64,000 bases of DNA. Origin: an uncultured Opitutia bacterium (GTDB taxonomy: Bacteria; Verrucomicrobiota; Verrucomicrobiia; Opitutales; UBA953). The translations under genes were made by a program, and so were the position numbers. Under the pieces are notes generated by a model. The model saw only the letters and a program-made list of their open reading frames with translations, searched no databases and had not been told where the DNA came from. Below, one piece after another: positions 2,677 through 35,468 of this stretch; the first letter of the stretch is position 1, and each line of letters opens with the position of its first letter. The DNA is taken from assembly GCA_903913915.1 (NCBI GenBank), contig CAIWNE010000086.1, positions 22,381 to 86,380 on the forward strand, written 5' to 3'.

Positions 2677-4401
2677 GTGACGACCGCCGACGACTACGTC
2701 ATTCAATTCATTCAGGACAAGGGACTGGTGTCCCCTGCCGACGTGACCGAGGCCTACGCCGCGACCCAGCCCGTGCCCGAGGGCCAGAATGCTGACACCC
2801 TCGCGATCGCCAAGCTAGTCGAGACCAACAAGGTCTCCTGGGCCAAGATCACCGCGGCCCTCAGCCTTGAGTTCGACATGGAGGTCGTCGACGTAGGCCA
2901 GGTCTCCCCGGCCGACGACATCCTCAAACTCATCAGCCGCGAGCAGGCCGAGAAGCATAACATCCTGCCGTTGCAGATGGACGGCACCGAGCTGCTCGTC
3001 GCCATCTCCGACCCGCTCGACACCGAGACCATCGACTCCGTGTCGCGCGTCCTGAAGCTTGCGATCAACCCCAAGCTGGCCCCGCCCGACGCCCTCAAGG
3101 AAGCCATTTCACGCTGTTATAACGGGGGTCAGATCGGCGGCGCCAACTCTTATTCCGACATCCTGGGCAAGGATGGCGGCGATGGTCTCGCCGTCGAGCT
3201 GCCTCAGGGCGGCGAGGTCAAGGAAGACGACGCCCCGATCATCCGTTACGTCAACTCGCTGATCGTCGACGCCATCCGTCGCAAGGCTTCGGACATCCAC
3301 CTGGAGCCGCTCGAGAAGCGTTTCCGCGTCCGTTTCCGCGTCGACGGCGTGCTTCAGGAGATGAAGGGTCCGCCCAAGCGCCTGCAGCCTTCCATCATCT
3401 CCCGACTCAAGCTGATGGCGGAAGTTTCGCTCGCCGAGAAGCGCATCCCGCAGGACGGACGCATCCAGGCCCGCACCGGCGGCCGCGACATCGACTTGCG
3501 CGTCTCCGTGCTGCCCACCGTCTACGGCGAGTCCATCGTCATGCGAATCCTCGACAAGGAAGGCCTGAAGCTCGGCCTTCCCGAGCTGGGCTTCTTCGCC
3601 GACGACCAGGCCAAGTTCCAGGGCCTCATCTCCGGCTCCGACGGCGTCTTCCTGGTCACCGGTCCGACCGGTTCCGGCAAGTCGACCACGCTTTATTCCG
3701 CGCTGAACTACATCAACAAGCCGGACCGCAAGATCATCACCGTCGAAGACCCGGTCGAATACCAGATGGCCGGCATCAACCAGGTGCAGGTCAAGCGCGA
3801 CGTCGGCATGACGTTCGCCGCGGCCCTTCGCGCCATGCTCCGTCAGGCGCCGAACATCGTGATGATCGGTGAAATCCGAGATCTCGAGACCGCCGAAATC
3901 GCGATCAACGCGGCCCTCACCGGCCACATGGTGTTCTCGACCCTCCACACCAACGACTCCGTCTCCGCCGTCACCCGACTCGTCGACATCGGCGTCAAGC
4001 CGTTCCTCGTGTCCGCCGCGTTGCGCGGAGCGCTCGCGCAGCGACTCGTGCGCCGCAACTGCCAGGCTTGCGCCGCCCCGAACAAGCCCACCGCCAAGGA
4101 CCTCGAATCCATCGGCATGACCGAGCACGACCTTGCCAGCGCCACGCCGATGAAGGGCCCCGGCTGCCCCAAGTGCGGCGAACGCGGCTACAAGGGCCGT
4201 CGCGGCGTCTTCGAACTCTTCGTCATCACCGAGGAGATCCAGGAGATGATCTACGGCGGCTCCAACCTCGTCGACCTCCGCCGCAAGGCCCGCGAGGCGG
4301 GCATGCGCACCATGCGCGAGGACGGCCAGCGCAAGGTCGCCTCCGGCATGACGACCATCGAAGAGGTGCTTGGCGCCACCGTCGCGGACGACGTCATCTG
4401 A
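2677..4401 (+). CDS. pilB: type IV pilus assembly / type II secretion ATPase (PilB/GspE family), copy 1
   Basis: Hexameric cytoplasmic ATPase that powers polymerization of pilins or pseudopilins through the PilC/GspF platform. The 574 residues carry an N-terminal MshEN-type domain (to about 150), the secretion ATPase core with Walker A GPTGSGKS near 329, Asp box EDPVEY, Walker B-like [14 protein letters not shown], and His box HTLHTND. A tetracysteine zinc region follows (CQAC ... [14 protein letters not shown]). The start is GTG at 2677, preceded by a pyrimidine-rich leader (ggatttccccact) without Shine-Dalgarno. It heads a run PilB-PilT-PilB2-PilC with gaps of 4-31 bp. No pilin, pilM-Q or secretin genes are in the window, so pilus versus secretion use cannot be decided here. 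Confidence 0.93.
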
Positions 4402-4405
4402 GCCC

Positions 4406-5479
4406 ATGGCCTACGAGATGAACCAGCTCCTGGAGGCCATGCTTGAGAATGGCGCTTCGGACCTGCACATCCGCGTGGGCCGTTCCCCGAGCCTCCGTAT
4501 CAACGGTTCCGTCGTCTCCATCGACGGCCCGGCCCTGGACGAGGCCGCCGCCAAGGCCATGGTCATGGCCGTCGTGCCGCCCGCCCAGCTCGCGCGCCTC
4601 GACGCCGACGGCGGAGCCGATTTCGCCTTCTCCTATCGCCAGAAGACCCGCCTCCGCGTGAACGCCTTCCGTGGCCTCGGCGGCTACGGCATGGTGCTGC
4701 GCCTCCTGCCGTCCGCGATGTTCACCCTCGAGCAGCTCCGCCTGCCCCCGGTGATCAAGGACATGCTCAAGCGCGCCCGCGGCCTGGTCCTCGTCACGGG
4801 GCCGACCGGCTCCGGCAAGTCGACCACGCTCGCCTCGATGATCAACTGGATCAACGAGAACGAGCAGGGGCACATCATCACGATCGAGGACCCGATCGAG
4901 TACACGCACGCCCACAAGAACTGCCTGATCACCCAGCGCGAAGTCGGCGTCGACCTCCCTTCGTTCTCCGAAGGCGTCCGCGCCGCCCTCCGCCAGGATC
5001 CGGACGTCATCCTGATCGGCGAGATGCGCGACCTTGAGACCATCGAGGCCGCCGTCACCGCCGCCGAGACGGGCCACCTCGTGCTCGGCACCCTGCACAC
5101 TTCGGGCGCCACCCGTACGATCGACCGCATCATCGACGCCTTCCCGGCCACGGCCCGCGACCAGATCCGCGCCCAGCTTTCCACCTCCCTGTCCGCCGTC
5201 ATCTCGCAGTGCCTCCTGCGCACCGTCGACGACAAGCGCGTCGCCGCCTTCGAGATCATGGTCCGCACGGACAGCGTCGGCGCGAAGATCCGCGAAGGTA
5301 AGACCTACCAGCTGCTCACCGACATCGAGACCGGCGGCTCGCGCGGCATGCGTACCATCGACAGCGACCTGCTGGCGCTCTTCTTCCAAGGCCTCGTTTC
5401 CGAGGAAGAAGTCTTCAACTACTGCCAGAATCCCGAAGCCATGCGCGAGCGCATGCGCGGAGGTGCCCAGTCGCGCTGA
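4406..5479 (+). CDS. pilT: type IV pilus retraction ATPase PilT
   Basis: Hexameric ATPase that depolymerizes type IV pili (twitching, DNA uptake). The ORF track starts at 4370, but the ATG at 4406 ([12 protein letters not shown]), 4 bp after the pilB stop, gives the typical PilT length of 357 residues. Visible: N-terminal ASDLHIRVG, Walker [10 protein letters not shown] near residue 133, Asp box EDPIEY, Walker B-like [14 protein letters not shown], His box GTLHTS, and a PilT-like C-terminal segment ([21 protein letters not shown]). There is no tetracysteine zinc motif, which separates it from the two PilB-like neighbours. A retraction motor here argues that the cluster serves real type IV pili. 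Confidence 0.93.
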
Positions 5480-5510
5480 CCTTTCCCCACCCTTTCCCCA
5501 ACCCATTCCC

Positions 5511-7193
5511 ATGTTCGACGACCATAGTGACGTGATCCGTGATATCGCCCTCGAGGCCGGCCTCGTGACGCCCGCCCAGGCCGAGGAGATCTGGGAGTCC
5601 CACGCGACCACCGGCAAGTCGTTCAGCGACAGCCTCGTGGACGCAGGCCTCGCCGATCGCCCGACCATCCTGCAGGCCATCGCGGACCATCTGCACGTGC
5701 AGTACTACTCCGCCGTCCCGGCCGATCCGGGCGACGCCCTCGTCAAGCTCCTCAAGGCGCCGCAGGCCCACAAATACGTCGTGCTCCCTGTCGCCGACGA
5801 GGCCGGCAAGCTGACCCTCCTCGCGAAGGATCCGTTCAATTCGTCCGTCATCAACGAACTGGGCTTCATCCTCCAGAAGGACATCGAGCTCGCCGTCGCC
5901 GATCCTTCCCAGGTGGAAGCCGCCGTCACCCGCGTCTACGGCGAAGCCACCTCCTCCTCGATGGAGGACCTCCTCGGCGAATTCGGCGAAGTCGAAGCCG
6001 CCGCCGTCACCGATGAAGACGTCACCAAGGCCGCCAGCCAGGCGCCGATCATCCGCTTCGTCGACCTCGTCCTGCAGGAAGGCGTCAAGGCCAAGGCGTC
6101 GGACATCCACTTCGAGCCCTTCGAGACCGAGTTCCGCATCCGTCTCCGCATCGACGGCTCGCTCTACGAGATGGCGCCTCCGCCCAAGAACCTCGCCTCT
6201 GCCGTCATCGCCCGCGTCAAGGTCCTGTCCTCGCTCAACATCGCCGAACGTCGCGTGCCGCAGGACGGGCGCATCAAGACCACCATCAGCGGCCGTCAGA
6301 TCGACCTTCGCGTATCGACCTTGCCCACGCAGTTCGGGGAGTCCGTCGTGCTCCGAATCCTGGACAAGACCGTCGTCAACCTGAGCCTCGAGGCGCTCTC
6401 GATGCAGGACGACATCAAGGAGGGCATCCGCGCGATGGTCGGCCGCCCGAACGGCATCTTCATCGTCACCGGTCCCACGGGCTCCGGCAAGACCACCACG
6501 CTCTACTCCGCGCTCCGCGAAGTGAACACCGAGGACGTCAAGATCCTGACGGCCGAAGACCCGGTCGAATACGAGGTCGAAGGCATCATGCAGGTGCCGA
6601 TCAACCACCAGGTCGGCCTGACGTTCGCCGCCGCGCTGCGCTCGTTCCTCCGTCAGGATCCCGACACCATCATGGTCGGCGAAATCCGAGATCTCGAGAC
6701 CGCCCAGATCGCCGTGCAGGCCTCGCTGACCGGCCACGTCGTGCTTTCCACGCTCCACACCAACGACGCCCCCGGCGCGGTCACCCGACTCATCGACATG
6801 GGCCTGGAGCCGTTCCTCATCTCAGCCTCGCTCGAAGGCGTGCTCGCCCAGCGACTCCTGCGCCGCATCTGCAAGACCTGCCGCACCCCTTACGAGCCCG
6901 ACAAGGACGTCGTCAACATGCTCGACGTAGACGCGCTCGAGATCGCCAACAAGAAGTTCTACTTCGGCAAGGGCTGCCCGGAATGCAACCGTTCCGGCTA
7001 CAAGGGCCGCCAAGGCCTCTTCGAGCTGATGACGATCAACGACCAGCTGCGCTCGCTCATCACCCAGAAGGCGCCGACCCTCGTCCTGAAGCAGAAGGCC
7101 ATCGAATCCGGCATGCGCCCGCTCCGCGAGGACGGCCTGCGCTGCATCTTCGACGGCCACACTTCCATCGAGGAAGTCCTCAAGTACACCTAA
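5511..7193 (+). CDS. type IV pilus assembly / type II secretion ATPase (PilB/GspE family), copy 2
   Basis: Second PilB/GspE-type ATPase, 560 residues from the ATG at 5511 ([17 protein letters not shown]). The ORF-track start at 5034 lies inside pilT in another frame and is rejected. Domains: MshEN-like N-terminus, Walker A GPTGSGKT near 322, Asp box [20 protein letters not shown], His box HTLHTND, and zinc cysteines CKTC ... [14 protein letters not shown]. It is clearly paralogous to the 2677-4401 gene but diverged. The leader is strikingly C/T-rich (ctttccccaccctttccccaacccattccc). PilC follows 24 bp later. Whether the two copies drive separate machines or form a mixed motor is open. Confidence 0.92.
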
Positions 7194-7217
7194 CCTTCAA
7201 CATACCCCACCACTCCC

Positions 7218-8462
7218 ATGCCCGACTACAAGTATACCGCGATCGATCGCAACGGGGCGCAGACCTCCGGCAAGATCGAGGCCGCCAACGACGAACAGGC
7301 CCGCCAGAAGCTCATGGCGAAGGGCCTCATGGTCACCACGCTGGCCAGCGACGCCGGTTCGGCGAAGCCTGCCGCGACCGCCACGGCCCCCGCCAAGGCC
7401 GGCTTCTCGTTCGGGTCCAAGGTCTCCCAGAACGACGTGACGGTGATGACCCGTCAGCTGGCCACGCTCATCGTCGCCGGCCTGCCGCTCCTCCGCGCCC
7501 TGGAACTCATCACGAAGCAGGAGCGCAATCCGGCCTTCAAGGCCATCCTCGCCAACGTCGCCGAGAGCGTCTCGCAAGGTAACAACCTTTCCGAAGCCCT
7601 CCAGGCCCACCCGAAGGTCTTCGACAAGCTCTTCGTCAACATGATCCGCGCGGGCGAGGCGGGCGGCGTGCTGGACAAGGTCCTCGACCGTCTCGCGAAG
7701 TTCCGCGAAAAGGCCGAACGCATCCAGAAGAAGGTGAAGTCCGCGATGGTGTACCCGGGCGTCGTCATGTCGGTCGCCATCATCATCGTCTACATCCTGA
7801 TGGTGAAGGTCGTCCCTTCCTTCCAGAAGCTGCTCGACGGCCAGAAGACCCAGATGCCTCCGCTGACGCAGTTCGTCGTCGGCATCTCCAAGCTGCTCAC
7901 GGTCTACTGGTGGGCCACCCCGATCCTCATCTTCGGCATCTACGCCGGCCTGAAGAGCTGGCTGTCCACCGACAAGGGCAAGGAACTCTTCGACCGCATC
8001 ATCTTCCGCCTCCCCAAGGTCGGCGCCTTCGTGCAGATCGTCTCGGTCTCCCGCTTCGCCCGCACCTTCGGCACCCTGATGGCTTCCGGCGTACCGATCC
8101 TGCAGTCGATCTCGATCACCCGCGACACCCTCGACAACGTGGTGATCGCGAAATCCCTCGAGCGCGTGCATGATCGCGTGCGCGACGGTGAGCCGCTCTC
8201 GGTGCCGCTCGAGCAGTCCGGCGTCTTCCCGCAGATGGTGACCTCGATGATCCAGGTCGGCGAAGAGACCGGCCAGCTTCCGGAGATGCTCAACCGCGTC
8301 GCCGACATCTATGACGAAGAAGTCGACAACGCGGTGACGGCGCTGACTTCGATCATCGAGCCGGTGCTCATCGTGTTCCTCGCCGTGGTCGTCGGCACGA
8401 TCGTGCTCGCGATGTTCCTCCCGCTGATCGCGCTCATCACGAAGATGACCGGCGGCGGCTGA
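7218..8462 (+). CDS. pilC: type IV pilus / type II secretion inner-membrane platform protein (PilC/GspF)
   Basis: Polytopic inner-membrane platform on which the PilB/PilT ATPases act. The 414 residues start MPDYKYTAIDRNGAQTSGKIEA, the usual PilC/GspF opening. Two GspF domains follow (about 75-200 and 275-405), with the repeated pattern TRQLATLIVAGLPLLRALE / ARTFGTLMASGVPILQSI and membrane segments near 178-198, 235-250 and 385-405. Last gene of the motor block; a hairpin terminator starts 22 bp after the stop. The leader (ccttcaacataccccaccactccc) is pyrimidine-rich. Confidence 0.95.
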   Translation: MPDYKYTAIDRNGAQTSGKIEAANDEQARQKLMAKGLMVTTLASDAGSAKPAATATAPAKAGFSFGSKVSQNDVTVMTRQLATLIVAGLPLLRALELITKQERNPAFKAILANVAESVSQGNNLSEALQAHPKVFDKLFVNMIRAGEAGGVLDKVLDRLAKFREKAERIQKKVKSAMVYPGVVMSVAIIIVYILMVKVVPSFQKLLDGQKTQMPPLTQFVVGISKLLTVYWWATPILIFGIYAGLKSWLSTDKGKELFDRIIFRLPKVGAFVQIVSVSRFARTFGTLMASGVPILQSISITRDTLDNVVIAKSLERVHDRVRDGEPLSVPLEQSGVFPQMVTSMIQVGEETGQLPEMLNRVADIYDEEVDNAVTALTSIIEPVLIVFLAVVVGTIVLAMFLPLIALITKMTGGG

Positions 8463-8484
8463 GCCGATCTCCGCAGGCACGACG

Positions 8485-8515
8485 AAGCCCGGTCCGCAAG
8501 GAGCCGGGCTTTTTC
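8485..8515 (+). terminator. rho-independent terminator after pilC
   Basis: AAGCCCGG ... CCGGGCTT forms an 8-bp stem (8485-8492 with 8504-8511) with an 11-nt loop, followed by TTT then C. It lies 22 bp after the pilC stop and would end the pilus motor transcript. Confidence 0.8.
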
Positions 8516-8549
8516 GTGTCCAGGGAAGGGAAGTGACCCCTCAAAAAGG

Positions 8550-8588
8550 AGGCGGCTTGCATACCCCTATGCAAGCCGCCTGTTTTTT
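8550..8588. terminator. second, very strong hairpin terminator, probably bidirectional
   Basis: AGGCGGCTTGCAT / ATGCAAGCCGCCT is a perfect 13-bp stem (8550-8562 with 8569-8581) around the loop ACCCCT. It is followed on the plus strand by G and six T. On the minus strand the hairpin is followed by CCTTTTTG, so it can also stop the tRNA-fMet transcript arriving from the right. It is a tandem partner of the terminator at 8485-8515. Confidence 0.75.
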
Positions 8589-8728
8589 ACTGCTTTATCT
8601 TACTTACCCCATTGTCCAGTAGGAAAAATTTAATACCTGATACCGTGCAATTAATTCCGACCGGTTCAAGCCTAATCCTACACTTTCTGACCACTTTTTT
8701 AAGTGGCTGCCTTTCAAGGCTTTAAAAT
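8589..8728. other. AT-richer spacer between terminator and tRNA-fMet, no gene seen
   Basis: About 140 bp of clearly lower GC than the surroundings. It contains a small hairpin CCACTT-TTTT-AAGTGG near 8692-8707. ORFs crossing it (8604-8855 minus, 8747-8941 plus) run through the tRNA and have no coding features. The 138 bp to the right of the tRNA (8807-8944) likewise shows no gene. Confidence 0.4.
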
Positions 8729-8806
8729 TGGGTGCAGGGGTAGGATTTGAACCTACGACCTTCAGGTTATGAGCCTGACGAGCTAACCGGGCTGCTCCAC
8801 CCTGCA
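8729..8806 (-). tRNA. initiator tRNA-fMet (anticodon CAT)
   Basis: Read on the minus strand from 8806: acceptor TGCAGGG, D arm GAGC-loop-GCTC, anticodon arm TCAGG-CTCATAA-CCTGA, variable AGGTC, T arm GTAGG-TTCAAAT-CCTAC, acceptor CCCTGCA, discriminator C, and an encoded CCA ending at 8729. The purine-11:pyrimidine-24 pair (A11:T24) and overall match to bacterial initiator tRNAs identify it as the initiator rather than elongator Met. Two unusual points: position 1-72 is a T:A pair instead of the mismatch typical of Escherichia coli (C1/A72), and the 29-41 pair is A:T, so only two of the three hallmark G:C pairs remain in the anticodon stem. Confidence 0.93.
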
Positions 8807-8944
8807 ATAAGTGGGAGGCGAAGGAGAAAGCGGCGACGGCTGAGTCGCAAGCCATTTCTTACGCGAGTTCGGGCCTGGTTAGGCGGGCCAAAAAGGGTTG
8901 AAGCAGGCGGGGCAGGGGGGAAGATTGCCCACCCCCTTTAAGCG

Positions 8945-10924
8945 ATGAGCGAAGATACCCCTACGCCCCCTCCTGGCGACGTCCCTCCGGTTGACCTGAA
9001 AAAGGTCGAGACGGACTCCCTCGGGTCGAAGCGCATGAAACGCTCCTTGTGGAAACGCATCGGCGCCAGCGGTCTGTCCGTCTCGCTGGCGATCCACGTC
9101 CTGCTGGTCTTCATCGCCGCCGCTTACGTCGTCTCCACCGTCACCGACAACGCCAAGAAGGATCCGAACACCTTCGCCACCGGCGCGGGCGGCGGTTCCG
9201 GAGGGGACCGCGTCAAGAGCACCCAGCACAAGGTCCAGCCGAAGAACGTGAAGTCGCTCGCGAAGACGACCACCCGCATCACTTCCAAGAGCGCCTCCGC
9301 TTCGATCGCGTTGCCCGACCTGCCGAGCTCGGCCTCCGCTTCCTCGATGGTCTCCGGCGCGATGGCCGGCGGCGCGTCCAAGGGCTTCGGCGGCGGCGCC
9401 GGCGGCGGCATCGGCGCCGGCAAGGGCATGGGCGCCGGCGGCGGCAAGAACTTCGTCGCGAAGCCGGTGATGGGCGCGAACATCTTCTCGCAGCGGCTGG
9501 CGGTCTATTTCGACGCCTCGGCCTCGATGCTGCCTTACCTCGACCGCGTCGAGGCTGAGATCCGCGACAAGTTCCCCGACGCCGACGTCTACATGTACGA
9601 CGGCGTCTTCATCGACATCCATGACGCCGAAGTCGTCGGTGGCGACAAGTTCAAGGGCGAGGCCTTCCTGAACCGTCGCGTCGGCGGCGGCTCCAAGAAG
9701 AACGCGAAGGGAGACATCGTCGCGACCGAGACCAACCCGGCCAAGCTCACCAGCGCGGGGCGCAATCTTCTCAAGAAGTATAACACGAATTTCAAGAAAG
9801 GCTCCGTCGGCGCCTGGCTGGACGTCCTCAAGGACGACCGCTCCTATGACGCGTTGATCGTCTTCTCCGACTTCGAGGACGGCGTCCGTCAGATCCGCAC
9901 CAAGGCCATCGGCGGGGTCCCGGCGTACAAGCCTGACAAAGGCATGCGCGCCGACCCGCCCGTGGTCTTCAACGACCGCAACAACCAGGGCGGCGGCTTC
10001 GCCCGTTCGGTGACCTTGATCGTGACCGGCGGCGCCTCCGGCCAGACCGTCCTGCAGTGCAAGGACACCACGGGGCTCATCACCGACATGATGGCCATCG
10101 GGACGGGCATCGCCCCGGGGACCACGGTCACCGACATCAAGCCCAACGTCAGCTTCACGCTCAGCAAGCCTCTGACCGCGGCCTCCAACGGGCGCGTCAT
10201 CTGCAATAACGGCGGCGACAAGCGCTTCCCCGAAGAGAAGAAGTGGGAGGACGAGTGGGAGAAGTCCTTTGCCGGAGCCCGCGACAACAAGGGACCTCGT
10301 CTTTACCTGATCAGCACCTCCCGCGCCTACGGGAACAAGCCTGGCACGATTCTCCAGCGATGCGTCACCGCCTCCGAGGGCGCTGCGATCATGGTGAAGT
10401 TCGGCAATGCCAAGAAGGGCGCCAAGACCATCGACGACCTTCATAACTACACCGACCTCTATGTCGGCATGCCGGTCAGCGGCCGCGGTGTCCCCAAGGA
10501 CGCCGAAGTCGTGTCGCTGCCGACCTTCAAGGAGATCGTCGACCCCGAGGATCCCGAGAAGAAGCGCAAGAAGAAGGTCACGGACAAGCAGATGGTCATC
10601 TCCGCTGCGATCACCGAGGACGTGACCAACGGCGTGTTCTCCTTCACTCCCCTCATCCAGGCGGTCGGTACGCTGGCTAAGGATGCCAAGACCATCACCG
10701 AGGTCTCGGGTTCCATCGACCTCAAGGCAGGCATGACCATCATGGACGCCCGTTTCCCTGCGGACACCAGGATCGTCAGCGTCACCCCGACCAAGGGATC
10801 CGTCGGTTTCTTCACCGTCGAGATGTCCGCGCCTGCCAACGCCGCGGCTGCGAACGCGATTCTGCGTTTCCGTCCTGCCGCCTCTACCACGGGCAATTCC
10901 CGCGGCGCAGCTCCGGCTCGCTGA
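8945..10924 (+). CDS. TonB-like anchored von Willebrand A domain protein with three inserted/appended repeat modules
   Basis: A 659-residue protein of unknown function. Residues 1-40 are a Pro-rich then basic cytosolic part. Residues 41-66 form one membrane anchor containing S47-LAI-H51, the SxxxH pattern of TonB anchors. Then a Gly/Ala/Ser-rich linker (about 75-175, GGGAGGGIGAGKGMGAGGG), and a vWA domain from about 178 with a complete MIDAS start D190-A-S-A-S194 and VFSDFEDG. The domain is split near 355 by a repeat module (IGTGIAPGTTVTDI), resumes at KKWEDEWEKSFAG ... GPRLYLI, and two further modules follow (VGMPVSGRGVPKDAEVVSL; KAGMTIMDARFPADTRIVSV). Paralogous to 11073-12149, which lacks the modules. 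Predicted periplasmic with metal-dependent ligand binding; coupling to ExbB/ExbD is inference. Confidence 0.85.
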   Translation: MSEDTPTPPPGDVPPVDLKKVETDSLGSKRMKRSLWKRIGASGLSVSLAIHVLLVFIAAAYVVSTVTDNAKKDPNTFATGAGGGSGGDRVKSTQHKVQPKNVKSLAKTTTRITSKSASASIALPDLPSSASASSMVSGAMAGGASKGFGGGAGGGIGAGKGMGAGGGKNFVAKPVMGANIFSQRLAVYFDASASMLPYLDRVEAEIRDKFPDADVYMYDGVFIDIHDAEVVGGDKFKGEAFLNRRVGGGSKKNAKGDIVATETNPAKLTSAGRNLLKKYNTNFKKGSVGAWLDVLKDDRSYDALIVFSDFEDGVRQIRTKAIGGVPAYKPDKGMRADPPVVFNDRNNQGGGFARSVTLIVTGGASGQTVLQCKDTTGLITDMMAIGTGIAPGTTVTDIKPNVSFTLSKPLTAASNGRVICNNGGDKRFPEEKKWEDEWEKSFAGARDNKGPRLYLISTSRAYGNKPGTILQRCVTASEGAAIMVKFGNAKKGAKTIDDLHNYTDLYVGMPVSGRGVPKDAEVVSLPTFKEIVDPEDPEKKRKKKVTDKQMVISAAITEDVTNGVFSFTPLIQAVGTLAKDAKTITEVSGSIDLKAGMTIMDARFPADTRIVSVTPTKGSVGFFTVEMSAPANAAAANAILRFRPAASTTGNSRGAAPAR

Positions 10925-10944
10925 GCCGGCTTCCGGCGCGGCTG

Positions 10945-10976
10945 AAAAGGCGAAGCCAGGTGCTTCGCCTTTTTTG
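10945..10976 (+). terminator. rho-independent terminator after first vWA gene
   Basis: AAAAGGCGAAGC-CAGGT-GCTTCGCCTTTT is a 12-bp perfect stem with a 5-nt loop running into a T-tract (TTTTTTG). It begins 21 bp after the stop at 10924, so the two vWA paralogues are probably separate transcription units. Confidence 0.85.
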
Positions 10977-11072
10977 TCGGGACTTCATCTGGGGCGAACG
11001 TCTGGTCCGACAGCGGGGATTCTCCGACACTCCCTTCGCTTGAGCCGGATCTGCGTCGCCTAGACTGGCGTG

Positions 11073-12149
11073 ATGACCCGTTCGCAACCGATCGTCGCGC
11101 GTCGTCCCAGGGAGCGCTCGCTAGGCGGCCTGCTGCTTTCCCTGGGGCTGCACGGCCTGCTCGTCGTCGCGGCCTGTTGGGTCGTCTTTCGTACGCCTAA
11201 GGCTGGGCCGAGACAGGAGTTCGTCTCGCATGCGGTAGCCGGGGGCAGGTCGGGCGGTCCGACGGCTTCTCGCCCGATCCAGCGGAAGCCGAAGGTCGCG
11301 ACGCCGCAGCGTCGGCTGACCTCGAAGTCGGCCAGCGCGACGCTGGCTTTGCCGCCGATGAAGGCGATGACGCCGGAGATAGGGCTCGCGGGTCTGTCCG
11401 GCGGACAAGGCAAGGGTGGTTTCGGCCGCGGCCATGGATCGTTCGGCGGCGCCGGACTCGGCTCAGGCCCAGGCAGCCGCGCCGGTTTCGTCGGCCGACC
11501 CGTGATGGGCGCGTTCATCCGCGCGAAACGCGTCGCGGTCTACCTCGATTGCTCAGGATCGATGCGTGCCTATCTCCCGCGCGTCGAGGCCGAGATCCGG
11601 AAGGAGTTCCCTGATGCGGACGTCTACCGTTTTGACGGAGCAAGGGTGGTGGGGTTGGGCGACATGGTCGTCTACGGCCGTAAATTCCATGGTGTGGCGC
11701 CGAAGCTCCGGGAGGGACCGACGCAGACCTCGCTCGAGAGCCTTACGCCGACCGGAAAGTCCGTCCAAGCCAAGGTCCGTGCCGCTTGCGAGAAGGGCTC
11801 GCTTGGCGCGTGGGTGGATCGGCTGCTGGCCGAGCCGTACGATGCCTTGGTGGTTTTCTCCGACTTTCAGGATGGCGTCCGACTCTATGAGTCGAGGAAG
11901 GGCGAGCCGAAGATGGTCTACTCGGACAGCTCCTATCATAAGATCGGCGGAGCCCAGAAGGGCCACACCCGGTGGCAACGCGAATGGCTGGAAGCCTTCG
12001 GCAAGGCCCCGCAGGGCGCCGGGCCGCGGCTATACCTGTTCACCGTCCAGCAGGAGCCCCAGCCCTTCCTGCAGGCCTGCGTGGAGGCCTCCGGAGGCTC
12101 AGCCACGTCGGTCTCCTGGTTGCGTAAGGGCGGCCGGAAGGCGCCTTGA
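11073..12149 (+). CDS. TonB-like anchored von Willebrand A domain protein (paralogue without repeat modules)
   Basis: A 358-residue paralogue of the preceding gene. The ORF track uses GTG at 11070; the adjacent ATG at 11073 is equally good. A basic N-terminus (RRPRERS) precedes a membrane anchor at about 17-36 with S23-LGL-H27, again the SxxxH pattern. After a Gly-rich linker (about 105-140), the vWA domain has MIDAS D159-C-S-G-S163 and VFSDFQDG. Segments shared with the paralogue: TSKSASA, PVMGA, YLPRVEAEIRKEFPDADVYRFDG, SLGAWVDRL, and WQREWLEAFGKAP..GPRLYLF. The protein ends just after the core domain, showing what the ancestral architecture looked like. A weak TTGAGC/TAGACT pair lies directly upstream. 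Confidence 0.85.
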   Translation: MTRSQPIVARRPRERSLGGLLLSLGLHGLLVVAACWVVFRTPKAGPRQEFVSHAVAGGRSGGPTASRPIQRKPKVATPQRRLTSKSASATLALPPMKAMTPEIGLAGLSGGQGKGGFGRGHGSFGGAGLGSGPGSRAGFVGRPVMGAFIRAKRVAVYLDCSGSMRAYLPRVEAEIRKEFPDADVYRFDGARVVGLGDMVVYGRKFHGVAPKLREGPTQTSLESLTPTGKSVQAKVRAACEKGSLGAWVDRLLAEPYDALVVFSDFQDGVRLYESRKGEPKMVYSDSSYHKIGGAQKGHTRWQREWLEAFGKAPQGAGPRLYLFTVQQEPQPFLQACVEASGGSATSVSWLRKGGRKAP

Positions 12150-12186
12150 CGGTTGCGCCCCCGGGCCGGACGGCTTGGATAGGCGA

Positions 12187-12606
12187 ATGGCCCCCTTCAC
12201 GGCAGATTATCGCGCCAATTTCTCCGACACCGACGCCGCGGGCATCGTGCATTTCTCCACGGTCTTCTTCTGGGTCGAGGCGACCGAAGAGGCTCTTTTC
12301 CGCCAACTGAAGCTGCCGTTCATCCGCGCCGAAGGTTCGAAGCTGACGGGCTTTCCGCGCGTGCGCGTCGAATGCGACTTCCTTTCGCCGATCTACCGCG
12401 AAGACGTGGTGACCGTCGCGATCTCGCCGAACGAGATCGGCGACAAGAAGCTCGTCTGGGGTTTCACCGCCGCCGTCGGCGAGCGAGCCGTCGCCAAGGG
12501 CGCCCTCACGACCGTCTACGCCTGGCGCGAAGGGCAGGGGCCGATGTCGGCAGCCCTCGTCCCGCTCGAGATCAAGACGGCTCTGCAGAAGCATTTCGGG
12601 GCCTGA
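12187..12606 (+). CDS. acyl-CoA thioesterase, 4-hydroxybenzoyl-CoA thioesterase (YbgC/FadM-like) family
   Basis: Hot-dog fold hydrolase of 139 residues starting at the ATG at 12187 (MAPFTADYRANFSDTDAAGIVHFSTVFFWVEATEEALFR). The motif SDTDAAGIVHFSTVF matches the catalytic loop of 4HBT-type thioesterases, with the Asp of DxxGxVHxxxxxxW in place. The ORF-track start at 11566 lies in the vWA gene in another frame and is rejected. The substrate cannot be read from sequence. Downstream, a GT39-like membrane protein starts 3 bp after the stop. Confidence 0.88.
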   Translation: MAPFTADYRANFSDTDAAGIVHFSTVFFWVEATEEALFRQLKLPFIRAEGSKLTGFPRVRVECDFLSPIYREDVVTVAISPNEIGDKKLVWGFTAAVGERAVAKGALTTVYAWREGQGPMSAALVPLEIKTALQKHFGA

Positions 12607-29341: not shown

Positions 29342-29785
29342 TCACTCCGTGTCCGAAACCGCGAACGTGACGTTCGTGATGTTGGCCTTGGCGAGGCAGT
29401 CGAGGACGTTGATCACGCGTTCGTAGCGGGCGTTCTCCTCGGCCTGGACGGTGATGAGCAGCTTCGTCTTGGACTGCTCGGCGGCCTGTCCCATCTGCTT
29501 CATCTGGTTGTAGAGGTTCTCGAGGAGCTTGTCGCCCGGGGCGCCGACGGAGTCTTCGTTCAGGGTGATCTCGCCAGACTCGCTGACGCCGATCGTGACT
29601 TCGTCGGGCAGTTCGGTCTCCTTGGAGGTCTCGGCGTTGCCGGGGAGGGTGGTCTTCAGCTCATGTTCGACCTTCACCGCGCCGGCCATGACCATGAAGA
29701 AGAGCATGATGACGAACACCACGTCGATCATCGGGGCGATCTGGAAGCCGGGGTTCACGTCGGCCTGTTGCTCGAGTTGTTTCAT
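29342..29785 (-). CDS. exbD: biopolymer transport protein ExbD/TolR family (second of two)
   Basis: A 147-residue single-pass inner-membrane protein of the ExbB/ExbD proton channel. The short cytosolic N-terminus is followed by the signature FQIAPMIDVVFVIMLFFMVMAG, with the proton-carrying Asp in MIDV, then a periplasmic domain. Starts 3 bp after the stop of the first ExbD. Two different ExbDs with one ExbB is common outside the proteobacterial TonB system. Last gene of a five-gene operon with no tonB. Confidence 0.92.
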   Translation of the reverse strand: MKQLEQQADVNPGFQIAPMIDVVFVIMLFFMVMAGAVKVEHELKTTLPGNAETSKETELPDEVTIGVSESGEITLNEDSVGAPGDKLLENLYNQMKQMGQAAEQSKTKLLITVQAEENARYERVINVLDCLAKANITNVTFAVSDTE

Positions 29786-29788
29786 GGC

Positions 29789-30229
29789 TTATTCCTCGTG
29801 GTTGAGGCCCGAGAAGGCGATGTTGTCGATGCCGGCTTCGGCGCCCCATTCGAGGGCCTTCGAGATGTACTTGGCGTGGCACTCCTTGTCGGCGCGGATC
29901 AGCAGGCGGTACTTCTCGTTCGTGCCCTTGCGGTCGGCGAGTTCCTTGGCGATGCCTTCCTTGTCGTTCGGGTCCAGTTCGCGGTCGTCCAGCTTGTACT
30001 TCGCCTGGCCGGTGGTCTTGTCCCACGAGATGTTGATGAGGCCTGCGGCGGCCTTGTCGTCGCGCTTCACGCCGTTGGCGGCGACCGGGAGCGCGATGTT
30101 CTTGTCCACCTTGAGCACCTGGGCCGACGTGATGGACATGAAGAAGATGAGCAGGACCAGAAGCACGTCGATCATCGGCGCGACCTGGAACTCCGGTTCC
30201 CCTTCTCCGCCTCCTCCTCCGCCTGCCAT
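29789..30229 (-). CDS. exbD: biopolymer transport protein ExbD/TolR family (first of two)
   Basis: 146 residues: a Gly-rich start (MAGGGGGGEGEPEF), the anchor FQVAPMIDVLLVLLIFFMSITSA with the conserved Asp, then a periplasmic domain containing an unusually charged loop (SWDKTTGQAKYKLDDRELDPNDKEG). The family pattern of a C-terminal beta/alpha domain (RLLIRADKECHAKYISKALEWG) is kept. Starts 32 bp after exbB; the leader CCCCCTAACCCAACAGCC is C-rich without Shine-Dalgarno. Confidence 0.92.
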   Translation of the reverse strand: MAGGGGGGEGEPEFQVAPMIDVLLVLLIFFMSITSAQVLKVDKNIALPVAANGVKRDDKAAAGLINISWDKTTGQAKYKLDDRELDPNDKEGIAKELADRKGTNEKYRLLIRADKECHAKYISKALEWGAEAGIDNIAFSGLNHEE

Positions 30230-30261
30230 GGCTGTGCTGTTGGGTTAGGGGGTGGAAGGGC

Positions 30262-31059
30262 TTACGACCGGACGTTGGAAGACGCCGAGGCGTTCCAATC
30301 CGGCTTGGCGGCGTAGATCTCTTCGTCGCCGACCTTGCGACCTGCGACTTCGTCGTAGGGGACGGCCCGGAACAGGCTGGTCGCGATCTCGGTGATGTCG
30401 TGGATGCCCTTGTTGATGCGGTTGGCCAGGAGGTAGTAGGAGATGAAGGCCGGGATGGCGATGAAGAGGCCCGAGGCGGTGGCCACGAGCACCTCGCCGA
30501 TGGCGCCGGCGAGCTGGGAGGGGTCGCCCACGCCGGAGGAGCCGAGCTTGTCGAACGCCTTCATCATGCCCGTCACCGTGCCGGTGAGGCCGATCATCGG
30601 GGTGCAGACGCCGATCACGGAAAGGTAGGAAGAGCGGCCCTTGAGTTCGCCCTGGATGCGGGTGATCTCGGAGATGATCGCCTCTTCGGTCATCGTCTTG
30701 CCATCCGGAGTGAAGGCGACGCCGGCGCGGACGACTTCGGCCACGGGGGAGCCGGCGGTCTTGGCGAAGGCGTAGGCGCCGATGTAGTCGCCCTTCTTGA
30801 AGAGTTCCTGGAGCTGGGTGACGTGCTCGGTCGGGTAGAGGGCGCCGGCGCGGGTGCGGAGGAAGCCGTCGACGATGAACCAGATCATGGCCACCGAGCA
30901 GAGGGTGATGGGGTACATGACCCAGCCGCCTTCATGGAAGAGGTCCATGAGGGTCTTGTCGCCGGACTTCTTGGCGACTTCTTCGGCGGCCGAGGCGGCC
31001 ACGGTCATCAGGCCGAGCATGGCGGCGCTGAGGGAGGTAGAACGGAGGTTCATCTTCAT
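30262..31059 (-). CDS. exbB: MotA/TolQ/ExbB proton channel family protein
   Basis: The channel subunit that, with ExbD, converts proton motive force into mechanical work. 265 residues: a signal-peptide-like N-terminus (MNLRSTSLSAAMLGLMTVAASA), then three membrane segments at about 48-66, 148-172 and 190-212. The conserved ExbB core is LKGRSSYLSVIGVCTPMIGLTGTVTGMMKAF ... GDPSQLAGAIGEVLVATASGLFIAIPAF. The extra N-terminal signal is typical of extended ExbB proteins outside enterobacteria. Leader ACACCCCATCATC is C-rich. Confidence 0.93.
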   Translation of the reverse strand: MKMNLRSTSLSAAMLGLMTVAASAAEEVAKKSGDKTLMDLFHEGGWVMYPITLCSVAMIWFIVDGFLRTRAGALYPTEHVTQLQELFKKGDYIGAYAFAKTAGSPVAEVVRAGVAFTPDGKTMTEEAIISEITRIQGELKGRSSYLSVIGVCTPMIGLTGTVTGMMKAFDKLGSSGVGDPSQLAGAIGEVLVATASGLFIAIPAFISYYLLANRINKGIHDITEIATSLFRAVPYDEVAGRKVGDEEIYAAKPDWNASASSNVRS

Positions 31060-31111
31060 GATGATGGGGTGTAGGCGGTTTTTAGGTTAGGTTTTGGAAA
31101 GGGGCAAGGAC

Positions 31112-32128
31112 TCACTTGTTGCCTTCGACCTTCTCTTCGTCGGCAAGCTTGGGTTTGGCCATGATGACGCCGTCAGGCAGGGGGCCGCCGGCGGCGATCT
31201 TCTTCTGGTCGGCCTCGGCCTTGGCGCGTTCTTCCTTGGGCAGCATCTTCTTGGCTTCCTCGGCCTCCTTGGAGACCGGATACGAGACGATGATGTCGTA
31301 GAGGTAGCGATTGGAGATCGCTTCGAGCTTCTGCTCGCGGAGCGCCGGGCTGTCCATTCCGCGGAACGAGCGGGCCGCGCCGAGCAGGGCCTTGGGGACG
31401 AGTTCGGCCTCGGAGCCAAAGAACACCGGGACGCGGAGGTAGGTGGTCATCGCGGCCTCGTACTTCTTCGAGGCGAGGAGCGAGTTGCCTTTGACGATGT
31501 GGAGGCGGGCCTGGAGTTCGGCGGTGTCGACCTTGGTCAGGAGCTCGGTGGATTCCTTGATGACGGCCTCATGGTCGCCCTTGCGGGCGCGCTGCATGAG
31601 GCGGGCCAGCTGGATCTGCGTGGCGACCTCGGGCTGCTTGGCGGCGTCTTCCTTCTCGAAGGCGGTGAGGAACGCCTCCGTGGCGGCGTCGTTCTCGAGG
31701 CGGTCGAGGGCGTCGAGCTTGACGACGGCGGCCTTGGCCCACCAGGAGCCGGGGACGTTCTTGATCGGCTCGAAGAACTTCAGCACCGCTTCGACGTTGT
31801 CGAGGGCCTTGGCGGGATCCCCGCGGTTCACGTTGGCCTGCGCCTCCTTGAGGCGGGCGGGCAGGGGCCAGACCACTTCGGTGACTTCGGACAGCTTGCG
31901 GGTGAGGGTGACTTCGATGCCGCCCTGGTTGCTCACGCGGTCGATGGTGCCCTTGACCACGTTGATCGTGCCCTTCTTGGGGTCGACGAGCGGCTTGGGC
32001 GGGATGGAGTTATCCATCTTGAACGGGTCGTTGATCTCCCAGCGTTCGCCTTTGAAGACGAAGGTCTGGGCCGAGGCCGAGGCCGCGGCGAGGAGCGCGA
32101 GGGCGGGGAAGAGGAGGGAGAGTCGCAT
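31112..32128 (-). CDS. exported TPR-like protein of the ExbB/ExbD operon
   Basis: 338 residues with a cleavable signal peptide (MRLSLLFPALALLAAASASA-QT). A small N-terminal beta-rich part (TFVFKGERWEINDPF, TINVVKGTIDRVSNQGGIEVTLTRK) is followed by helical TPR-like repeats (ALDNVEAVLKFFEPI, LLASKKYEAAMTTYLRVPVFFG) and a Lys/Glu-rich tail. Between the 1111-aa TPR gene (4-bp gap) and exbB (52-bp gap). Probably a periplasmic adaptor; no named family recognized. Confidence 0.75.
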   Translation of the reverse strand: MRLSLLFPALALLAAASASAQTFVFKGERWEINDPFKMDNSIPPKPLVDPKKGTINVVKGTIDRVSNQGGIEVTLTRKLSEVTEVVWPLPARLKEAQANVNRGDPAKALDNVEAVLKFFEPIKNVPGSWWAKAAVVKLDALDRLENDAATEAFLTAFEKEDAAKQPEVATQIQLARLMQRARKGDHEAVIKESTELLTKVDTAELQARLHIVKGNSLLASKKYEAAMTTYLRVPVFFGSEAELVPKALLGAARSFRGMDSPALREQKLEAISNRYLYDIIVSYPVSKEAEEAKKMLPKEERAKAEADQKKIAAGGPLPDGVIMAKPKLADEEKVEGNK

Positions 32129-32132
32129 GGGG

Positions 32133-35100
32133 TCAGAGTCCGAGGAGATAGGCTTTGGCTTCTTGGGCTTCGCGGGTGTCCTTGATGCGTTCCTTCTCGA
32201 GCATCTCCTTCAGGAGCTGCTTGGCGGCGTCCTTCTGGTTGAGCTTCGTGGCGAACAGCTTCGCGGCGCCGAAATAGGAGCGGGCGGCCCAGACCTCATA
32301 TTTCTTCCAGGTCATGAAGCAGCGGCGGTAGTAGGCGACGGCTTCGGCGTAGCCCTTCTCGTCCGTGGCCTGGCGTTCGGCCATCAGGCCCAGCCAGTAG
32401 AGGGAGGCGGCGGTCTTCTCGCCGCGCCACTCCTTGGTCTTGGCGATCTCTTCGAACTCTTTCTTCGCCTCGGCGTACTTGGAGAGTTCGGCGAGGGAAC
32501 GGGCGCGCGTGAAGCGGAGGTCGAGCTCCTTCGCCATCAGGATGTTGTTGTCGATCGCTTCGTTGCAGAGCGAGAGGGCTTCGGCGTATTTCTTGTCCGC
32601 GAAGGCGATCTCGGCGAGGCCGGCGAAACCGTAGTCGGCGTATTCGGACGAGCGGGAGTGCTCGAGGATGTAGCCGAAGTACTCCGCCGCCTTCTTGTGG
32701 TCGCCTTTGGCGAGGAGGCTGTCGCCGACGAGCGCGAGGATCGTCGGGTTGAGTTCCTCGGCCTTGTACGTGGCGGCGATCTTCGCGAAGTTGGCGGCGG
32801 TCTTCTCCGGTTCGCGGGTGAAGACGGCGAGCTGGCCGAGTGCGAACAGGCCGCGCGCCTGGGCGATGAGGGAGTCATGGTGGTCCTCGAGGCGGAGCAG
32901 CTTGGTCAGTTCCTTCTCGGCGTCGGCGCTCGTGTAGGCGCCCGGCTCGGGCTTGGCGCCTGCCTTCACGCGCTTGATCTTGCGGGCCAGTTTCTCGGCA
33001 AGGAAGCCTGTGAGCTTCTCGGTGCCTTCCTGCGTGCGGTCGTTGATGGAATCGGCGACCGCCTCGGAAAGGATCTTCAGGGCGCGCTTCTTCTGGTCGG
33101 CGATGGAGGACTGGCGCTTGGCTTCGACCTTGGAGAGCTCGGCTTCGAGGTCGGCGGACAGCTTCTTGACCGCGGCCTTGGCGGCGTCGACGTCATCCTT
33201 GACCACCTTGTCGCGACGTTCGACCTCATCGACCTTCTTGCGGGCCTCGGCGAGCTGGGCGCTGAAGGCCTTGCGGATCTTCTCGGATTCCGCGGCGAAC
33301 TCGGGCATGTCGCCCATCCGTTCGGTGGAGCGGATGACCTCGTAGAGGTAGGTCATCGCCTTGGGGTCGTTGTGGTTCCAGTCGAAGATCTCCTTGAACA
33401 GGTCGCGCATGCGCTTGTGCTCGCCGCGGCCGGGGAGCAGCTTGCGCAGTTCGCCAAGGACGAACTCGAGGGCCTGCGGGTTGGTGCGGGCGCTCTTGGC
33501 GGCCGCTTCGTAGGCGTCGATGGCCTTGTTCGTGATGGCTTCCTTCTCCTTCTCGAGCTTGGTGCGGATCTCGACGTACTTGGCCTTGTCGGAGGATTTG
33601 GCGTTGGCGCGGACGTCCAGGTCGGCGGCCTTGACCTTCTTGTCCACCTCGTCGGCGAGGCGCATGTGGGCGTCGCCGATCAGCGTGTAGACCTCGGGGG
33701 TCTGCGCGATGACGTCGTCGGTGTTGGTCTTGGCGTAGTCCGCCAGCCAGGCTTCGCAGAGCTTGATGGTGCCTTCGATGTCGGGCGGATTGACGCCGAA
33801 ACGCACGATGGCCTGGCGGTAGCGGACGTCGGGGATGAACTGGCCCTTCGGGTATTCCTGCTCGTACTTGTCGAAGTCGACCTTGGTCTCCTTGTACTTG
33901 CCCTGGAAGAACGAGCAGAGCGCGTTCATGTAGAGCACCTGCTGGCGGACCGGCGAGCGCTCATGCTTCTTGAGGAACTCCTCGAAGGCCTTCTGGGCCG
34001 GAGCCCAGTCGACCTGCGAGAAGAGGCATGCGGCGATGCGGAAGTCGATCTCTTCCTCCACCTCGGGGGTGAGGGTCTTCACGTTGGCCTTGACCCACTT
34101 GTAGTGCTCGATCGCCTCGGGGAACTCTTCGCGCTCCTGGGAGATGTCGCCGAGGATCAGCGCGATGGCGGAGACCTGGTCGTCCTTCGGGAACTTGGAG
34201 ATGAACTCCTTGCACTTCGCCTGTGCCTCGTTGTTGCGGCCGATGCGGCGCAGGGCGAGGATGTGGTAGTAGTAGGCGCCGGAGATGCGGCTGAAGCCGG
34301 GGCTGTTCTCGAAGATGTCGAGGAAGGCGACATGGGCTTCCCATGGGCGCTTGAGCTCGAGCAGGCAGAGGCCGATGCGGTAGGAGATGAACGCGTCGTA
34401 GTCCTTGTTGGCGTTGAACTCTTCCTGGATCTTCTTGAACTGGGCGACTTCCTGCTTGGCCTTCTCGATGTTGGCGGCCTGTTCCGGGTTGGGCTTCGGG
34501 AAGTTCTTCGTCATCGTGTCCGCTTCGGCCTGCTTGGCCTCGATGGCGCGGCCGAAGGAGCTGCTCAGGTTGGCGCGGCGGAGCGTGCCCTGGTAGTTCA
34601 GGAGGGCCTGGCGGTAGAAGTCGGCGCGGAAGGTCTCGTCGGCGGCGGATTCGGCCGCGGCGAAGCGTGCGTCGCCGATCTCAAGGCGTTGGAAGTTGGA
34701 GCGAACCACTTCGACGGGCGAACCGTTGCTCCTGGCATCGATCTCGTTCTTCAGCTGCGAGGCTTCCTTGGTCAGCCCGAGCTTGGTGTACATCTCGACG
34801 AGCTTGTACGCGGCCTCGCGGCGCTCGGGGGTGTTGATGCCGTCGGCGGTCGCCTGCTTCAGCAGGGCGATGGCCTGCGAATAGGCTTCCCGCTTGGCTT
34901 CGTCCGTGCCGATCTTGGCGCGGTCGACGATGATCTGGGCGGAAAGGGTGAAGGCGTTGACGCGTTCTTCCGGGCGGGCGAGGGTGTTGGTGCGGATCTT
35001 CTCGAGGCGGCCGAGGGCGAGTTCCCATTTGCCCTGCTTGGAAAGGGCTTCGATCAGCAGCAGCTCGGCCGTCCCGCGGCGATTGTCGCCGTCGAAGAAA

Positions 35101-35468
35101 TCCTCGGTCCCCTTGGGGTATTTGTCCAGGAACGCCGTCAGTTCGGCCTGCGCGCGCGGCCAGTCCTTGATGAAGAAGTGGCAGAGCGCCTTGCGGAACA
35201 GGACGACGGCCTTGAGCTTCGGTTCGACGTCGACGGCCTTGGCGTCAAGTTGCTCATACTGCTCGAGCGCCTCCTTGTACTTCTTCTCCTCGAGGCTCTT
35301 CTCGGCGGCCTTGTAGAGGATCGAGAGCGGGTCTTCCTGCTTCTCGGCGGCGGGCGCTGCCTTCTTGGTCTGCGCGCGGAGGACGCCGGCGACCGGGGTC
35401 ACGGCGATCAGGACGGCGAGCAGGGCCGCCTTGGCCAATTTATAGGTGCGGGACTCTTGGATAAGCAT
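32133..35468 (-). CDS. very large exported TPR/coiled-coil protein of the ExbB/ExbD operon
   Basis: 1111 residues, first gene of the operon. An N-terminal hydrophobic segment (AKAALLAVLIAVTPVAGVLRAQ) is a signal peptide or anchor. The rest is a long helical solenoid with many TPR-like units (for example SLEEKKYKEALEQYEQLDAKA, EREEFPEAIEHYKWVKANVKTL, FADKKYAEALSLCNEAIDNNILMAKELDLRFTRARSL), and a charged coiled coil near 700-790 (KKVDEVERRDKVVKDDVDAAK). Similar TPR proteins accompany ExbB/ExbD in several non-proteobacterial phyla. The 1355-aa plus-strand ORF over this gene is a GC-driven shadow. Periplasmic location is inferred. Confidence 0.8.
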   Translation of the reverse strand: MLIQESRTYKLAKAALLAVLIAVTPVAGVLRAQTKKAAPAAEKQEDPLSILYKAAEKSLEEKKYKEALEQYEQLDAKAVDVEPKLKAVVLFRKALCHFFIKDWPRAQAELTAFLDKYPKGTEDFFDGDNRRGTAELLLIEALSKQGKWELALGRLEKIRTNTLARPEERVNAFTLSAQIIVDRAKIGTDEAKREAYSQAIALLKQATADGINTPERREAAYKLVEMYTKLGLTKEASQLKNEIDARSNGSPVEVVRSNFQRLEIGDARFAAAESAADETFRADFYRQALLNYQGTLRRANLSSSFGRAIEAKQAEADTMTKNFPKPNPEQAANIEKAKQEVAQFKKIQEEFNANKDYDAFISYRIGLCLLELKRPWEAHVAFLDIFENSPGFSRISGAYYYHILALRRIGRNNEAQAKCKEFISKFPKDDQVSAIALILGDISQEREEFPEAIEHYKWVKANVKTLTPEVEEEIDFRIAACLFSQVDWAPAQKAFEEFLKKHERSPVRQQVLYMNALCSFFQGKYKETKVDFDKYEQEYPKGQFIPDVRYRQAIVRFGVNPPDIEGTIKLCEAWLADYAKTNTDDVIAQTPEVYTLIGDAHMRLADEVDKKVKAADLDVRANAKSSDKAKYVEIRTKLEKEKEAITNKAIDAYEAAAKSARTNPQALEFVLGELRKLLPGRGEHKRMRDLFKEIFDWNHNDPKAMTYLYEVIRSTERMGDMPEFAAESEKIRKAFSAQLAEARKKVDEVERRDKVVKDDVDAAKAAVKKLSADLEAELSKVEAKRQSSIADQKKRALKILSEAVADSINDRTQEGTEKLTGFLAEKLARKIKRVKAGAKPEPGAYTSADAEKELTKLLRLEDHHDSLIAQARGLFALGQLAVFTREPEKTAANFAKIAATYKAEELNPTILALVGDSLLAKGDHKKAAEYFGYILEHSRSSEYADYGFAGLAEIAFADKKYAEALSLCNEAIDNNILMAKELDLRFTRARSLAELSKYAEAKKEFEEIAKTKEWRGEKTAASLYWLGLMAERQATDEKGYAEAVAYYRRCFMTWKKYEVWAARSYFGAAKLFATKLNQKDAAKQLLKEMLEKERIKDTREAQEAKAYLLGL

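Follow-up and report, generated by a model that had tools for sequence, protein, structure and literature searches.

What drives two neighbouring bacterial proteins that share a TonB-type membrane anchor and end in a vWA-like domain is the question raised by this locus. TolA and TonB are the two textbook carriers of inner-membrane proton energy to the outer membrane. The two proteins, here called P1 and P2, are encoded on a stretch of DNA of 64,000 nucleotides, which was analysed as a whole (hereafter the window). The host is a freshwater member of the Verrucomicrobiota with an assembly of 2.53 Mb (94% complete), and related loci were found mostly in freshwater Opitutae/Opitutia MAGs of the same phylum. 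We consider it likely, from sequence comparisons, that P1 and P2 act as transducers of the TolA/TonB kind and that they are driven by the motor of an ExbB-ExbD-ExbD operon (hereafter the cassette) in the same window.

An earlier note on this DNA had suggested that ExbBD may move or energize the two vWA proteins, and that no system with this layout had been described. The second statement does not hold. SHLS-anchored vWA transducers (Tichowtungia family) accompanied by this operon were described by Williams-Jones et al. 2025 (Mol Biol Evol msaf138, PMC12204202), and the ExbBD-driven vWA idea is therefore an independent rediscovery. The first statement stands in part: conservation, co-occurrence and adjacency in relatives speak for it, but the layout had already been described, the absence of tonB on which the note also drew applies to the window only, and the coupling is something that we infer. 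Relative to the main text of Williams-Jones et al. 2025, in which the terms PA14, squalene, prenyl and Opitut are absent, and to the literature searched on related terms, where nothing else relevant was found, the additions made here are the diversity of the payload domains, a linker box, and the genus-level detachment of the anchored genes from the operon.

Anatomy of P1 and P2

Both open reading frames were found where the earlier note had placed them, with a GC3 pattern like that of real genes. P1 (8945-10924, forward strand) encodes 659 aa with an SLAIH anchor (S47/H51) and DASAS at residue 190. P2 (11070-12149, forward strand) encodes 359 aa with an SLGLH anchor (S24/H28), DCSGS at residue 160 and FSDF at residue 263; its anchor residues are counted from GTG at 11070 and equal S23/H27 of the earlier note when counted from ATG at 11073. 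The two proteins share one plan, in which a basic N-terminus is followed by a single membrane anchor with SxxxH, a Gly-rich linker of about 100 residues, and a DxSxS domain. The TonB-like plan that had been proposed for them was confirmed at the level of the reading frames, anchors, linkers and C-terminal domains by the sequences and by an AlphaFold2 model of P2, which has a single helix (residues 18-40), a disordered linker of about 100 residues (46-137, pLDDT <50) and a compact domain from residue 143.

Like TonB, these proteins combine a basic N-terminus, an S-x3-H anchor, a long disordered linker and a C-terminal domain that is probably periplasmic with a motor of the ExbB/ExbD type. Unlike TonB, they are without the TonB C-terminal domain (PF03544; P1 and P2 gave no Pfam match at E-values up to 1), and the motor operon has two different ExbDs and two TPR-operon proteins, while TonB_C proteins are encoded separately.

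The vWA domain with an intact MIDAS that the earlier note had read in both proteins holds in a more cautious form. DASAS and DCSGS are present, and the Asp and both Ser of DxSxS and the second Asp of the expected metal site were invariant among 66 aligned domains, but neither P1 nor P2 matched any Pfam or NCBIfam model, vWA included. The P2 domain (11496-12125, forward strand; the segment used for modelling and searches) was modelled on its own with a mean pLDDT of 95.9, and its best PDB matches in Foldseek were the vWA domains of CLCA1 (probability 0.95, E-value 0.011, TM-score <0.5). The full-length model gave noisy Foldseek results, for which the disordered linker is probably responsible; with the domain-only model the outcome was better, though still weak. 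A profile search of PDB sequences with the vWA-like domain yielded no convincing relative, and in a profile-profile comparison with cousins the alignment was limited to the last strand. Pfam VWA matches are present in these cousins. Judged by the DxSxS motif, the predicted fold and the matches in the cousins, the C-terminal domain of P1 and P2 is vWA-like and divergent, a label chosen because of the E-value and TM-score of the CLCA1 match.

P1 has additional beta-repeat-like modules (residues about 350-420 and 480-640, recognised in the sequence), which were absent from the description in the earlier note. They read GMxVxGxGIPxGTxVxSI...LSxxAT, with one module inserted within the vWA-like domain and the others at the tail. 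The inserted module resembles repeats in two giant open frames elsewhere in the genome, of 11,897 aa (contig C70) and 12,014 aa (contig C33), which read like autotransporter-type adhesins.

A conserved face of the anchor helix

The S-x-x-x-H spacing that the earlier note had pointed out in both anchors is conserved among the orthologues. The anchors of all family members were aligned via a profile without conditioning on the His, which gave 166 distinct anchors; the His was present in all of them and the Ser at -4 in 157, with Thr or Ala in the others. The only other near-fixed positions were Leu(+3), Ala(+7) and Val/Ile(+11), and most of the helix was variable. Positions +3, +7 and +11 share a helix face with the His, while -4, 0, +7 and +11 are the register of the TolA/TonB SHLS motif; the anchor helix therefore keeps a single conserved face. 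Compared with the full SHLS motif, Leu(+7) is replaced by Ala and Ser(+11) by Val/Ile, whereas Ser-x3-His is retained. The codons from S47 to H51 of P1 (9083-9097, forward strand) are, from the sequence and the anchor alignment, the proposed motor-docking motif.

In the genome of origin, 59 genes encode an N-terminal hydrophobic segment, and SxxxH was present in six of them, all belonging to this family, TolA or TonB; among relatives it was present in 31 of 175 such genes, all from this anchored family. No N-terminal membrane segment with SxxxH was found outside the anchored family, TolA and TonB in the loci examined. Of the TonB_C proteins of the phylum, some have SxxxH and others lack it.

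The net charge around the anchor is +3.5 before and +0.2 after the membrane segment, which suggests an N-in topology. Several genomes encode, between P1 and P2, an anchorless vWA sister with a signal-peptide-like start (L056:8318-9073, L057:7041-7796), a gene absent from the window. The charge bias and these sisters favour a periplasmic location of the vWA domain, where the earlier note had placed it. The apparently secreted sister also implies that the domain can act without an anchor, as would be expected if the anchor were an ordinary tether, SxxxH a trace of shared TonB ancestry without current coupling, and the vWA domain a static periplasmic binder. We regard this as highly improbable, since the invariant His in 166 distinct anchors with an otherwise mostly variable helix, and the motor adjacency described below, are hard to explain without coupling.

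In 161 of 176 distinct anchored proteins, covering every payload type, the linker carries a short box, [KR][ILVF]...x[LIMV]P, about 72 residues past the His. It occurs in 5% of shuffled linkers, a contrast that is descriptive because the pattern was derived from those very sequences. The box may or may not be the 'motor box' of Williams-Jones et al. 2025.

The motor cassette and its link to the anchored genes

The ExbB-ExbD-ExbD operon with TPR partners that had been noted in the window is present on the reverse strand at 29342-35468, about 18 kb from P1 and P2, which are not part of it. Read from 35468 to 29342, it encodes TPRb (32133-35468), a TPR protein of 1111 aa assigned by TPR families and conserved before TPRa and exbB; TPRa (31112-32128), a protein of 338 aa that is conserved directly before exbB in several families and, being without a Pfam match of its own, is named by its position; the exbB/tolQ-type motor subunit (30262-31059; PF01618, 7.7e-25; also assigned by alignment and tree); and two different ExbD/TolR-type subunits, exbD_2 (29789-30229; PF02472, 4.7e-16) and exbD_1 (29342-29785; PF02472, 1.6e-23). 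Both TPR-operon proteins have a signal-peptide-like N-terminus. In the alignments, the cassette ExbB retains the pore Thr residues and the Ser of TM1, and both ExbDs retain the membrane Asp, in each case within PMID. An aromatic residue is found at Ser+5 in the cassette ExbB, versus Trp at Ser+4 in the TolQ of the same genome, a difference that counts against the proposed coupling.

For the cassette ExbB and ExbDs, the TolQ/TolR models outscored the ExbB/ExbD models, though below cut-off. In this preference, and in the S-x3-H anchor at the same register, the system resembles that of TolA; it differs in that P1 and P2 have no TolA C-terminal domain (Pfam, NCBIfam) and in that the TolA/TonB-like gene of the genome is separate. 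This gene carries SIAVH and lies beside an exbB/exbD (tolQR-like) pair (L065:9360-10160). The absence of tonB is correct for the window, but it was rejected as an argument for coupling: TonB_C was matched three times in the genome, twice above the family cut-off, and the statement is limited to the window because these matches lie on other contigs.

Five ExbB-type genes are present in the genome, including TolQR on contig C133 and ExbBD pairs on contigs C77 and C48. In a tree with long outgroup branches, the ExbB of the window grouped with cassette ExbBs (support 90/97), separately from two further ExbB/TolQ proteins encoded in this genome (95/92). P1 and P2 might be energised by one of the other motors, with the cassette driving something else, and the presence of five ExbB-type genes, the location of P1 and P2 outside the operon and the partial complementation between the motors of the TonB and TolA systems (PMC12215075) are in line with this. 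Such a choice of motor is nevertheless unlikely. The anchors of detached genes and of genes next to the motor form a single aligned family, in which +7 is Ala/Gly and +11 is mostly Val/Ile, as opposed to Ile and Ser at these positions in the TolA-like protein of the genome, and the occurrence of anchored proteins tracks that of the cassette ExbB.

The latter was seen in a survey of 390 genomes of the phylum, in which an anchored protein was encoded in 30 of 32 genomes with a strong cassette ExbB match (E <= 1e-44, a threshold set after viewing the list) and in 25 of the 358 remaining genomes (Fisher p about 2e-27, without correction for phylogeny). In several of these 25, the anchored gene adjoins a cassette that is more divergent. 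Some ExbB-type match was present in nearly all 390 genomes, and a test for anchored genes in genomes without exbB/exbD could therefore hardly fail.

The orthologous cassette, with the same genes in the same order as in the window, was found in many other families of Verrucomicrobiota, and among 40 loci sampled elsewhere in the phylum, 20 have an exbD upstream of an anchored gene in the same orientation, mostly no more than 35 bp away. No copy of the vWA subtype of the window (VWAa) adjoined exbBD in the sampled loci, where the neighbouring vWA copies belonged to another subtype, VWAb; this is among the weakest points of the proposed coupling. In one locus, a second exbB-exbD pair lies directly behind the cassette and its anchored toroid protein (L184:9476-10747). 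The distance from P1/P2 to exbB was 17.9-19.1 kb in 16 genomes, and it was given little weight as evidence of linkage because the gene order near P1/P2 is conserved anyway.

In the genus of the host, the anchored genes are detached from the motor operon, and P1-P2 are found in a conserved block downstream of pilB, pilT, a GspE-type ATPase gene and pilC, and upstream of a gene for a 4HBT thioesterase (2677-12606 of the window), an order kept in the genus loci examined. This position would suit anchored vWA subunits of a type IV pilus or type II secretion apparatus in which SxxxH is incidental. We consider such a role very unlikely, since the same anchor proteins adjoin exbBDD in other families of the phylum, pilC and P1 have a tRNA gene between them, and a wholly conserved His would be unexpected in a plain anchor. 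Moreover, no prepilin-type cleavage site was recognised by eye in the aligned N-terminus, and there was no Pfam pilin match. A connection between the neighbouring thioesterase and the Tol-associated YbgC was rejected, its score being far below the cut-off of that family.

Payload domains and proposed mechanism

Further anchored genes are found on other contigs of the genome, namely a third vWA gene (L012:1727-2989) and a gene of the PA14 type whose product has the anchor and linker of P1 and P2 (L053:6454-7734). Among 184 distinct reading frames of the family, assignment by profile gave 156 of the vWA types, 20 of the PA14 type and eight with a squalene-hopene-cyclase-like toroid; Pfam backs VWA_3, PA14 and SQHop_cyclase in exemplars, with some matches near the cut-off.

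The transducers of Williams-Jones et al. 2025 (PMC12204202) are alike in having a conserved His in their one transmembrane helix, a disordered domain II (about 100 residues) and a C-terminal vWA domain, and their genes lie downstream of TPR, tolQ-like and two tolR-like genes. The window has the same cassette order, but 18 kb from P1/P2, whereas relatives in other families are adjacent. The vWA genes are not only detached from the motor operon here but also multiplied, P1 has the additional modules, and the same anchor and linker also bear PA14 and squalene-cyclase-like domains. The TPH-vWA family of the same paper, which comprises tolQ with paired vWA genes and no tolR, is similar in that its vWA proteins form heterologous pairs and are linked to a motor of the TolQ type. 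It has no SHLS residues, however, and its proposed role is to take the place of TolR, in contrast to the SxxxH anchors and two ExbDs found here.

We propose that P1 and P2 are periplasmic proteins tethered to the inner membrane that would work like TolA and TonB. The SxxxH helix would dock onto the outside of an ExbB-type pentamer; in a cryo-EM structure, Ser16 and His20 of TonB contact Ser34 and Trp38 of ExbB (PMC12215075), and Williams-Jones et al. 2025 (PMC12204202) obtained AF3 complexes through the conserved His. The disordered Gly-rich linker would reach into the periplasm, where the vWA-like domain (or PA14 or the alpha/alpha-toroid in sister proteins) may bind a partner at the peptidoglycan or the outer membrane. 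The most likely motor, in preference to TolQR or another ExbBD, is the complex of ExbB and two ExbDs encoded in the window (29342-31059), with both exported TPR-operon proteins as putative accessories. Proton flow would move the anchor and thereby pull on or remodel whatever the C-terminal domain grips.

More broadly, we lean towards a reading in which, in Verrucomicrobiota, a single proton-driven motor of ExbB and two ExbDs serves a modular set of TonB-like transducers, with anchor, linker and box constant, periplasmic vWA, PA14 or toroid domains interchangeable, and a cytosolic SAM domain sometimes added. In this reading, the cell could exert force on several distinct targets in the envelope or among glycans. 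Across the phylum, the anchor occurs on at least three presumably periplasmic kinds of domain, often beside the motor, which extends the class of force transmitters first predicted in 2025. If the handle is a reusable part fused to different domains, force transduction across the envelope would be a broader mechanism, not confined to nutrient uptake and division, and the binding partners to search for would be indicated by the vWA, PA14 and toroid domains. The invariant His offers a single-residue test of the whole idea.

In one locus, a vWA and a PA14 protein are encoded side by side behind the motor (L185:7229-10238). Each has a SAM domain N-terminal to the anchor, and their anchors and linkers are near-identical, a similarity suggestive of domain swapping or gene conversion. 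A C-terminal Arg is frequent in the family (86 of the distinct C-termini counted), for example in P1 and in the proteins of L053, L058 and L060.
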